Source of the DNA: Nocardia cyriacigeorgica
Lineage (GTDB): Bacteria > Actinomycetota > Actinomycetes > Mycobacteriales > Mycobacteriaceae
NCBI RefSeq assembly: GCF_029868385.1
Contig: NZ_JARWNX010000023.1
Coordinates: forward strand, 62,001 to 126,000
DNA length: 64,000 nt
Direction of reading: 5' to 3'
Part shown: in pieces, positions 3,560 through 7,205 of the stretch
Position numbering within the stretch: position 1 is the stretch's first letter
How the letters are laid out: each line of letters opens with the position of its first letter
The notes under the pieces: model-generated
Seen by the model: only the letters and a program-made list of their open reading frames with translations
What the model was told of the DNA's origin: nothing
Databases searched by the model: none
Made by a program: the position numbers and the translations under genes

Positions 3560-3703
3560 CAGTGAATCGTCGAGCGGCGCGCAGCAGGGCGAGGTGGCGC
3601 TGGTGCGCGCTGATCTCGTATCCGGCTGGCGGTGATCCCCAGTCGCAGCCGAATGGCCGGGCACTCTCGGTGCGGTCGGACGATGGGCCTGCTGTGCCGA
3701 TCG

Positions 3704-4438
3704 TTATCGGTGTTCGGGGTTGGCGAACTCGGGGCGGCAGCCTGCGTCCCATTCGCTGCGCCGGTTGCCCTCCGCGGGGAAGCCTCCGGTGTCCCGCAGC
3801 ATCGCGGCCAGGTGCAGCAGGTTGTAGGTCATGAAGGTCAGGTTGCGGTTGGTGAAGTCGTTTGCCGGGCCACCTGAGCCGGGGTCCAGGTAGGAGGGGC
3901 CTGGGCCGGCTTCGCCGATCCAACCGGCGTCGGCTTGCGGCGGGATGGTGTATCCGAGGTGCTGCATGCTGTAGAGCAGGTTCATCGCACAGTGCTTGAT
4001 GCCGTCTTCGTTTCCGGTGATCAGGCATCCGCCGACGCGGCCGTAGTAGGCGTACTGTCCGGCGTCATTGAGCAGGCTCGAACAGCCGTAGAGGCGTTCG
4101 ATCACTCGTTTCATCACCGAACTGTTGTCGCCGAGCCAGATCGGACCGCAGAGCACAAGGATGTGCGCCGACATGACCTTGTCGAACAACTCGGGCCACG
4201 CATCATGCGCCCAGCCGTGCTCGGTCATATCCGGCCACACACCGGTCGCGATGTCGTAATCGACGGCACGGATCGCCTCGACGTCTACGCCGTGCTGCCG
4301 CATGATGTCTGCCGAACGGTCGATCAGCCCGCCGGTATTGCTGACTTCGGGCGATGGTTTGAGAGTTGCGTTGATGAACTACGCCCTCAGTCCCTCGAAC
4401 TGGCCGGATACCTCACGCTGTTGTGCTGGTTGATCCAC
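3704..4438 (-). pseudogene. flavodoxin-family NAD(P)H reductase gene interrupted by an in-frame TAG
   Basis: The gene would start at GTG 4438, seven bases after a clear AAAGGAG, and encode about 244 residues of a flavodoxin-fold FMN reductase. Codon 20 (4379-4381) is TAG. Directly after it the conserved FMN-phosphate loop continues in the same frame (FINATLKPSPEVSNT), then CGPIWLGDNSS, YYGRVGGCLITGNEDG and GYTIPPQADAGWIGEAGPG, all intact to the TAA at 3704. The only later ATG (4303) would lose the phosphate loop. One base change from TTG (Leu) to TAG explains it, since relatives read GLRALFIN here as I recall. It may be a recent pseudogene, a sequencing error or a readthrough product. Confidence 0.8.
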
Positions 4439-4752
4439 GCTCAGCTCCTTTCTTCGCGGCCGACCACTGGCCGAATTATCCGCGCGGCAGCCGCGCTTCG
4501 CACTCCTCGAACGGCACTCCGGACTGGACGCAGTCGTAGAGGCCGCTTTGGACGTCGCCGGAGGTGGGTGGCTCACCGCAGAGAAGTCCGCAGCGTCGAT
4601 AGCCTGGTACTTCAGATCCATCGGGGAAGTGGCAACCGCTGGTCGGCGAATTCGATGGGGGTGCAAGGCGGCCGTGATCGGGGTGCGGCCGGCCCGATCA
4701 CGGCTGGCGGGAGTTGCGCCCGCCTTGAAGTCCGGATCTCGCCACGCCAGTT
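4439..4752. other. gap with a possible decayed gene end (4476-4697, minus)
   Basis: Between the broken flavodoxin gene and the TetR gene, one minus-strand frame stays open from 4697 down to a TAA at 4476 and reads like a real protein end, with CGLLCGEPPTSGDV and YDCVQSGVPFEECEARL. It has no ATG, GTG or TTG at its head and is preceded by an in-frame TGA (4698-4700). It could be the 3' remnant of a lost gene of the same direction. The opposite strand is also open, so coding is not proven. The binding site AAAGGAG for the flavodoxin gene lies near 4445-4451. Confidence 0.3.
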
Positions 4753-5331
4753 CTACTTGTCAGAGGCTGACCTGCCGGCCAGCGCGCGAACGGCGGAGGA
4801 GACGGCCGCCCGGAGCTGATCCGGCGTGTAGTCGGGACCGAGAATCATGCGGCGCAGCTGCGGCATGGCGAGGCTCCATCCGACGAGTCCAAGGGTGAAG
4901 AACATGAGGGCACGCGGATCGTCGTCGCGTGCTCCTGTTGCAGCTTCGGCAGCGTTGATTTTATCGAGGTAGTGCTGGGTACGTGCCTGCTCGTCCGGAA
5001 CCGGATCGTCGCCCATTTCGAGCGCCTCCCACAGCAGGAGCCGCAGGGCCTCGGGATGGGCGTGGTGGTAGTCGAACAGGGCTGCGGCATAGGCGCCGAG
5101 GTCGGCATCGTCGCGGGGCGGCACTGCTGCGGCCAGGTCGGTCATCAGCCGTTCCAGCACAGCGGCGAACAGTGCCTTCTTATCGCCGAAGTAGTCGTAG
5201 ATGGCTCGCTTGTTGGCTTTGGCCGCGGCGGAGATGCGATCCACACGTGCTCCGGCGACACCATGGGCGGCGAATTCCTCCGCCGCCGCGATGAGGATAC
5301 GTTCCTTGGTTGCCGCTGAGTCGTATGCCAT
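4753..5331 (-). CDS. TetR family repressor, divergent from MFS transporter
   Basis: The 192-residue protein has an N-terminal helix-turn-helix of the TetR type (about residues 9-55, including VDRISAAAKANKRAIYDYFGDK) and a helical ligand-binding part. It starts at ATG 5331; a GTG-type extension to 5388 would run through the operator region. It stands back to back with the MFS gene, with two perfect palindromes between them, so it very likely represses both its own gene and the exporter and is released by a substrate of the exporter. The inducer is not identifiable. Confidence 0.88.
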   Translation of the reverse strand: MAYDSAATKERILIAAAEEFAAHGVAGARVDRISAAAKANKRAIYDYFGDKKALFAAVLERLMTDLAAAVPPRDDADLGAYAAALFDYHHAHPEALRLLLWEALEMGDDPVPDEQARTQHYLDKINAAEAATGARDDDPRALMFFTLGLVGWSLAMPQLRRMILGPDYTPDQLRAAVSSAVRALAGRSASDK

Positions 5332-5343
5332 GCCCTCGAGTGT

Positions 5344-5359
5344 AACGAACCAGTTCGTT
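5344..5359. promoter_or_regulatory. TetR operator 1 (AACGAAC-CA-GTTCGTT)
   Basis: A perfect inverted repeat with 7-base arms and a 2-base centre, 13 bases upstream of the TetR start. It shares the GAAC/GTTC core with the second palindrome 45 bases away, as expected for two sites of one dimeric repressor. Confidence 0.75.
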
Positions 5360-5388
5360 TGACAGTGTTGAGCACAGACTCCTAGCAT

Positions 5389-5406
5389 TCGAACTAACTA
5401 GTTCGA
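5389..5406. promoter_or_regulatory. TetR operator 2 (TCGAACTA-AC-TAGTTCGA)
   Basis: A perfect inverted repeat with 8-base arms and a 2-base centre, immediately upstream of the MFS gene start. A repressor bound here would block the MFS promoter or the start of its transcript. It has the same core as operator 1. Confidence 0.75.
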
Positions 5407-5424
5407 TCGCTTATGGAGATGGTG

Positions 5425-6660
5425 ATGACCACTACTGAAGATCAGCAACTCGCCCCACCCGCCGCCGCCGGTTTGTCCGTGCGCCCGTTGTTGTTCGCGG
5501 TGATGGCGATCTGCAGCGGAGTGACCGTGGCGAACGTGTATCTGGCGCAACCGCTACTGACGTTGTTCGCCCGAGGTCTGGGTGTCGCGCCGTCGGCGAC
5601 CGGTGTGGTGGTGACATGCGCGCAGTTCGGGTACGCCGCGGGGATCTTGCTTCTGGTGCCGTTGGGCGATGTCCGCCGCCGGCGGCCGTTGCTGATCGTC
5701 ATGCTGGCCGCGACCGTGATCGCGCTGCTGCTCGCTGCGGCTGCGCCCGGCCTGTCGCTGCTGGCGGCCGCTGCGGCGCTGGTGGGCGCATTCACTGTCG
5801 TCCCGCAGGTGTTGGTGCCGCTGGCTGCGGAGCTGGCCTCGCCGCAGCGGCAAGCCTCGGTTGTCGCCTGGGTTCAGATCGGGCTGATGACCGGCATCGT
5901 CGGTTCTCGCGTAATCGGCGGCGCGGTAGGCGAGGTGTTCGGTTGGCGGGCGGTTTACCTGCTGGCCGCCGTGCTGACCGGCGCGTCCGGGCTGCTGACC
6001 GTTGCCCTGGTTCCGCGTGAGCCTGCCCGTGCGGCCACGATCGGCTACGGCCGCCTGCTCGCCTCGCTGCCACGACTGGTGCGGGCCGAACCGGCTCTGC
6101 GCCACTCGTGCCTTCTGCATGCGAGCCTGTTCGGCGCCTACAACGCCACCTGGACCTCGCTGGTGCTGGTCCTCACCCACGAGCCGTATCACTTCAGCAC
6201 CGCCGCCGCGGGATTATTCGGGACGCTAGGGCTGGCAGGCGCGGTCGCCGCGCCGTGGGCCGGGCAGTTCATCGACCGTCGCGGCGCTCTGCCGATCATC
6301 ACCGCGGCGCTGGCGCTGACTCTGCTCTCTGCCGCGGCTTACGCACTCGGTCGCACCGCGCCGGCCTTCATGATTGTGGCGATCGTCTTGGTCAATATCG
6401 CGGTGCAGTGGAGTCAGATTGCCAACCAGGCCCGCATTTTCGCCTACCTGCCCGAGGCACGCAGCCGCGCCAACACCGTCTATATGGTCGCAGTCTTCCT
6501 CAGTGGCGCGATCTGCGCCGCTGTGGCGGGAGTCTGCTATGCGGCCTTCGGCTGGCCCGGTGTCTGCGCCTTGCAGGCTGCGCTCGCCATGGCCGGACTG
6601 GCGGTGCTGCCCTTCGCCCGCCGCCACGATCGCAGGAACCGCACAACGGTATCCTCCTGA
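5425..6660 (+). CDS. MFS efflux transporter
   Basis: A 411-residue membrane protein with about 12 hydrophobic helices, beginning with the helix around AVMAICSGVTVANVYLAQPLL. The loop between helices 2 and 3 carries GDVRRRRPL, matching the G-D-x-x-x-R-R/K-R motif of the major facilitator superfamily. Three in-frame ATG codons lie at 5413, 5419 and 5425; only 5425 has a properly placed GGAG (5415-5418), so I choose it. It probably exports a small toxic compound and is controlled by the divergent TetR. The substrate is unknown; the resemblance is to the YgaY-type drug transporters. Confidence 0.88.
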   Translation: MTTTEDQQLAPPAAAGLSVRPLLFAVMAICSGVTVANVYLAQPLLTLFARGLGVAPSATGVVVTCAQFGYAAGILLLVPLGDVRRRRPLLIVMLAATVIALLLAAAAPGLSLLAAAAALVGAFTVVPQVLVPLAAELASPQRQASVVAWVQIGLMTGIVGSRVIGGAVGEVFGWRAVYLLAAVLTGASGLLTVALVPREPARAATIGYGRLLASLPRLVRAEPALRHSCLLHASLFGAYNATWTSLVLVLTHEPYHFSTAAAGLFGTLGLAGAVAAPWAGQFIDRRGALPIITAALALTLLSAAAYALGRTAPAFMIVAIVLVNIAVQWSQIANQARIFAYLPEARSRANTVYMVAVFLSGAICAAVAGVCYAAFGWPGVCALQAALAMAGLAVLPFARRHDRRNRTTVSS

Positions 6661-6715
6661 GCCCCAACGACTTCCCTGATTCCACTGTTCCCGCAACCAT
6701 TCCAGGAGATCACCG

Positions 6716-7105
6716 ATGGCCATGCCCGCGATGCCCACCGCCGTGATGCAGTTCTTCACCGCTTCGCAGTCCGGCGACGCCGACGCCTGGGCCGATGCTT
6801 TCGCCACCGACGGCGTCTTCCACGATCCGGTCGGTGAACCGCCGATCGTCGGCCGCCCTGCCATCCGCGAGTTCATCGCCTCGGTGCTACCGAACTTCAA
6901 TCCCTTCTTGGGCCTCACTCCCCGCGATGCCTACACCGTCGCAAACTCGGTCGCAGTGTCATGGACCGGCGCGGCTGTCACCGGCACGGGCATTCCGGTG
7001 AACTGGTCAGGCATCAACGTCTACGACCTCGACGCCGACGGCCTCATCCGGGAAGCTCGCGCCTACTTCAACCGGGCCATCTTCCAGGTCCAACTCGACC
7101 GGTAA
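6716..7105 (+). CDS. SnoaL-like / NTF2-fold protein
   Basis: A 129-residue protein with the alpha-plus-beta cone pattern of SnoaL and ketosteroid isomerase-like proteins: an N-terminal helix region (FFTASQSGDADAWADAFA), then DGVFHDPVGEPPIVGRPAI, a VSWTGAAVTGTG strand and an ending ARAYFNRAIFQVQL. AGGAG stands seven bases before ATG 6716. It lies 55 bases after the MFS gene on the same strand and is likely cotranscribed, so it may modify or bind the compound exported. Reaction and ligand are not predictable from the fold. Confidence 0.8.
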   Translation: MAMPAMPTAVMQFFTASQSGDADAWADAFATDGVFHDPVGEPPIVGRPAIREFIASVLPNFNPFLGLTPRDAYTVANSVAVSWTGAAVTGTGIPVNWSGINVYDLDADGLIREARAYFNRAIFQVQLDR

Positions 7106-7113
7106 CCCGACCG

Positions 7114-7167
7114 GCGCGAGCCCAAGGCCCGGTCGGCGGGCCAATGCCTGCTGTCGAGGGCTCGCGC
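7114..7167. terminator. stem-loop between convergent genes
   Basis: GCGCGAGCCC (7114-7123) pairs perfectly with GGGCTCGCGC (7158-7167), and an inner hairpin (GGCCC with GGGCC) fills the loop. It lies between the convergent SnoaL-like and ABC permease genes and could end both transcripts. There is no U tract, as is usual in GC-rich actinobacteria. Confidence 0.5.
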
Positions 7168-7205
7168 ACCCGAGGCATCCCTCGGACTATGTCAGGAAAC
7201 CCCGA

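Follow-up and report, generated by a model that had tools for sequence, protein, structure and literature searches.

A RosB-like flavodoxin-family gene of Nocardia cyriacigeorgica probably inactivated by a recent nonsense substitution

A flavodoxin-family gene of Nocardia cyriacigeorgica carries an in-frame TAG at codon 20, and very probably this is a real, recent nonsense substitution that inactivated, in this lineage, a RosB-like, probably FMN-binding protein. The stretch of DNA that was analysed, called the window here, spans 64,000 nucleotides of contig NZ_JARWNX010000023.1 and comes from a 6.18 Mb draft genome in 63 contigs (G000). The features discussed below are collected in Table 1, in which G046 to G049 are four sister genomes and G048 is the nearest of them.

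Table 1. Positions in the window of the interrupted gene, its signals and its upstream neighbours.
Feature	Positions	Strand	Remarks
RosB-like flavodoxin-family gene, interrupted at codon 20	3704-4438	-	244 codons including the TAG, plus TAA
Shine-Dalgarno sequence AAAGGAG	4445-4451	-	Direct reading and alignment with the sisters
Start codon GTG	4436-4438	-	GTG in G048 and G046; aligned codon ATG in G047 and G049
In-frame TAG, codon 20	4379-4381	-	Within strand 18-23 of the model, the first beta strand; followed by T
224 open codons past the TAG	3707-4378	-	Purifying selection, dN/dS 0.085 against G048
ATG, codon 46; first common start codon past the TAG	4301-4303	-	Without visible Shine-Dalgarno sequence (by eye)
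3' remnant of the gene of a 159-residue Cys-rich protein (codons 106-159 and TAA)	4476-4640	-	Intact in G046, G047 and G049
TetR-family regulator, nearest gene of a TetR-MFS-SnoaL group	4756-5388	-	Group not found here in the four sisters

On the minus strand, AAAGGAG (4451-4445) is separated by six bases from GTG 4438, which opens 19 codons that end at the TAG (4381-4379); past the TAG the same frame stays open until the TAA (3706-3704). The motif and the GTG are common to the window, G048 and G046. An earlier note on this DNA had described such a well-placed start, the 19 codons and the TAG, and direct reading of the minus strand confirmed them. The continuation of the protein in the same frame, which it had also proposed, is borne out by the 224 open codons, by a profile match and by homologues that run in frame across the codon. 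The split gene is more than a chance arrangement, since the part past the TAG scores by itself as a member of the FMN_red family and the homologues keep the frame across codon 20. The earlier note had further warned that automated annotation would start at ATG 4303 and hide 45 residues, and the mechanical ORF call does begin there, giving 199 amino acids without the first 45 residues.

The 224 codons past the TAG score 42.9 bits with the Pfam family PF03358 (FMN_red; cut-off 24, E 4.9e-11), and the 199-residue part from ATG 4303 still reaches 34.4 bits (E 2e-8). A search of NCBIfam at E 0.001 found no family, whether or not the codons ahead of the stop were included. The sole sequence match in the PDB at E 0.01 was 5mji (E 1.9e-39; profile E 1.7e-49), which was also the best Foldseek match (E 9.9e-11, 32% identity, TM 0.66/0.64). 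In the fold search this entry is titled RosB with a bound riboflavin-phosphate derivative, and its PDB molecule name is BRAMP; a literature search on that name with flavodoxin returned no paper. The AlphaFold2 model is of moderate confidence (pLDDT 69.0 for the best of five, 60-61 for the others; pTM 0.74). In it, a strand (residues 18-23) is followed by a loop (24-33) and a helix (34-48), and residue 20 lies within the strand. Strand 1, the loop and helix 1 are thus encoded, at the confidence of the model, and are cut off by the TAG unless it is read through. By analogy with the fold, the loop after strand 1 would bind the flavin phosphate, and the product of the gene is probably a RosB-like, FMN-binding flavodoxin-family protein.

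RosB itself was rejected as the identity of the gene. The homology stops at window residue 217, which corresponds to RosB residue 206 of 257, so that the RosB-specific C-terminus of 52 residues, the criterion given in a passage of PMC11039241 for a link to roseoflavin, lies outside the alignment. The same passage describes RosB relatives below 40% identity as lacking the special C-terminus and as not involved in roseoflavin synthesis.

Codon 20 was located by its constant distance from codon 46 and counted in the best 80 of at least 586 confirmed relatives in genome_contigs. The aligned residue is Leu in 62, Met in 9, Val in 7, Ala in 1 and Thr in 1, and none of these 80 has a stop. The Ala (L041) is an off-by-one reading due to a one-residue gap; inspection by eye puts a Leu at the aligned place. 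The homologues are in frame across codon 20, starting at about codon 16, with that gap further on in one locus of the 80. A second set, which overlaps the first, consisted of 150 Nocardia genomes searched at a threshold of E 1e-60. Matches were found in 49 genomes, at 50 places including the window's own, and 101 genomes had no match at this threshold. At the 49 other places codon 20 is Leu in 43 and Val in 5, and one place is frameshifted and not readable (L180, in G095); no stop occurs in the 48 that can be read. The copy in G095 looks frameshifted in its first third, and another (L179, in G092) is fine at codon 20 and appears to shift frame towards its end, where there are two TGA codons. 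One genome (G094) has two copies of the gene, L087 and L167, which are 82% and 77% identical to that of the window. In G000 itself the search at E 0.001 found one place only, and no second copy able to take over the role.

The earlier note had suggested a comparison with sister strains at codon 20 and had guessed a change from TTG to TAG. The first found no stop in either set, and the guess agrees with the nearest sister: G048, like G047, has the leucine codon TTG, one substitution away from TAG. Among the matches listed, the closest ones with a species name come from two Nocardia cyriacigeorgica genomes, with 94% and 90% identity over 199 residues. The lesion is absent from the orthologues that were read, as in recent pseudogenes. 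The gene itself is dispensable in much of the genus, since two of the 49 other places look frameshifted and 101 of the 150 genomes are without a match.

The frame past codon 20 had been said to look under selection, and the comparison with G048 gave strong purifying constraint over the 224 codons (dS 0.328, dN 0.028). The changes were polarised by G046, G047 and G049, with two of the three agreeing. Each branch, that of the window and that of G048, received 16 synonymous changes; nonsynonymous ones number 9 on the former and 5 on the latter (Fisher p 0.52). At least 9 nonsynonymous changes of 25 have a probability of 0.02, 0.07 or 0.19 depending on the background ratio assumed, so that a slight relaxation on the window branch is possible. 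Relaxed selection was rejected as proof of age, the difference between the branches not being significant. In a comparison with 127 homologue rows, of which 124 are distinct and which exclude L179 and L180, two residues are peculiar to the window, A55 and Y61; G048 likewise has two such singletons. Neutrality over the whole branch has P 1.9e-5, and its neutral share has an upper 95% bound of 0.29-0.32. The lesion would then be either recent or not real, since neutral evolution of the gene can have covered no more than about a third of its branch. The relatives without a stop and the strong downstream selection favour the very recent nonsense change that had been put forward first.

If the lesion is not real, the cell has a sense codon and an intact gene, and the TAG is an error of sequencing or assembly. 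We consider this the main rival, and an unlikely one. It fits a lone lesion in a frame that is otherwise under constraint, in a 63-contig draft, and the selection data are compatible with an intact gene; against it, the lesion is a substitution and not an indel. The rest of the window also bears on the question. The window was compared with ORFs of the G048 region, each running from one stop to the next; of the 49 matches left after removal of overlaps, 13 are interrupted by a stop on the window side, the flavodoxin gene being one of them. Of the other 12, 10 have a dN/dS of at least 0.70, or an undefined one, in the segment that precedes the last stop, and in 2 the stop is too close to the start of the query for a dN/dS. 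These 12 stops seem to lie outside coding sequence, which argues against an error-prone sequence as far as nonsense changes in the genes shared with G048 are concerned, and among those genes no second nonsense lesion was recognised in a coding stretch.

A real TAG could still leave a working product if the 199-residue protein from ATG 4303 were functional, which we hold to be very improbable. The mechanical ORF call starts at that ATG, and its product still matches FMN_red. According to the model, however, such a protein would be without strand 1, the loop and most of helix 1; no Shine-Dalgarno sequence was seen by eye before the ATG; and the upstream part is kept in frame in the 80 loci and in 48 of the 49 genus places.

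It is just as improbable, in our judgment, that the UAG is decoded by near-cognate tRNAs, which would provide a low level of full-length enzyme. Rare readthrough of a working gene is compatible with the low downstream dN/dS and with selection that shows no significant relaxation, and in-frame stops with dN/dS below 1 are reportedly widespread in prokaryotes, according to a section of PMC7918605, which adds that such stops tend to persist only briefly. Less probable again is that the TAG is a tolerated functional attenuator, in which low near-cognate readthrough would keep the frame under selection while expression falls. Several observations speak against readthrough. None of the 49 tRNA genes of G000 has a CUA anticodon; the search used RF00005 at E 0.001 and could miss a tRNA that is divergent or falls in a gap of the draft. 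The PylS_Cterm profile reached 21.7 bits against a cut-off of 178.15; weak matches of this kind occur in 13 of 14 control genomes, one of them above the cut-off. The TAG is not conserved at the site, as the stop is in no homologue read. The 92 bases from the TAG onward fold poorly (z +1.57), 195 of 200 shuffles being at least as good, and no RNA family reached its gathering score between positions 3600 and 4800. Amber suppression or recoding is not supported, given the anticodons, the PylS score and the lack of conservation of the stop, and the readthrough option of the earlier note has found no positive evidence.

The base after the stop argues weakly in the same direction. Parts of PMC5289835 cite UAG followed by U as a context of low readthrough in yeast, and U at +4 is said there to reduce readthrough in E. 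coli and yeast. The point is weak because, in the paper's own comparison, the effect was mainly for UAA and not for UAG. The terminators in the window likewise lend readthrough no support: 32 genes conserved with G048 end in TGA (26), TAG (5) or TAA (1); they were picked by hand from the 49 matches with no fixed rule, leaving out this gene and the antisense-looking, overlapping and uncertain ones.

The truncation of the upstream neighbour is a new observation, absent from the earlier note. In G046, G047 and G049 the intact gene of a Cys-rich protein shares the strand of the flavodoxin gene and ends 38-40 bases before it; the protein is probably secreted, and by our own reading it has a likely signal peptide. 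In the window only the sense codons 106-159 (4640-4479) and the stop are left, and G048 retains about the last 14 codons. In the genus search with the Cys-rich protein (E 1e-5), G000 gave only the remnant and G048 nothing. Beyond the remnant lies a group of roughly 2.6 kb (4640-7202) with a TetR regulator on the minus strand and an MFS transporter and a SnoaL-like protein on the plus strand. A tblastn search of the 15-19 kb around the gene in G046 to G049 found nothing of this group. A relative of the MFS transporter, with 83% identity, is present elsewhere in G048.

Insertion of this cassette is not supported as the direct cause of the inactivation: about 200 bases upstream of the GTG are common to the window, G046, G047 and G049, and G048 is intact with a shorter remnant. 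The spacing suggests that the Cys-rich and flavodoxin genes are co-transcribed, and a shared promoter could have been lost before the stop arose. Such a loss would probably not have been sufficient, since G048 keeps even less of the upstream gene and yet has an intact frame, and the conserved 200 bases weaken the guess further.

We favour inactivation by the nonsense substitution. Ribosomes would start at GTG 4438, make 19 residues and terminate at the UAG. Translation restarted at ATG 4303 would yield a protein that, by the model, should not bind FMN, because it would be missing strand 1, the loop presumed to hold the flavin phosphate and most of helix 1. The locus is already rearranged, with the upstream neighbour truncated and the TetR-MFS-SnoaL group beyond it, and our guess is that changed expression may have made the gene dispensable. 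The finding is mostly a matter of annotation hygiene: the automatic start hides the lesion and reports a 199-residue 'FMN reductase' without the N-terminal flavin-binding part. It also provides one case, with an approximate date, of a gene being lost in the N. cyriacigeorgica group, next to an upstream gene that is truncated. For the strain GUH-2, a passage of PMC3751702 gives 14 pseudogenes and 49 tRNA genes. Literature searches on N. cyriacigeorgica pseudogenes, actinobacterial readthrough and recent pseudogenes gave no title on this gene among the matches listed.

Among known proteins, RosB (5mji) is the closest by both sequence and fold in the PDB, a flavodoxin-like enzyme solved with an FMN-derived ligand. 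The alignment starts at its second residue and crosses codon 20, and the two proteins differ in the C-terminal part. The PF03358 reductases SsuE and MsuE and the NQO-type quinone reductases are more distant: the family score is above the Pfam cut-off, and structures of SsuE, MsuE, NQO1 and NQO2 are among the 50 Foldseek matches listed, but with only 10-17% identity to the window protein. As a lesion, the interrupted gene resembles young single-lesion bacterial pseudogenes, which likewise have one nonsense change, in one genome only, and no significant acceleration. It is an ordinary case in this respect, since pseudogenes of this type are the usual ones in Salmonella: by the figures in a part of PMC2916853, 346 of 378 pseudogenes there have a single lesion and most are strain-specific.
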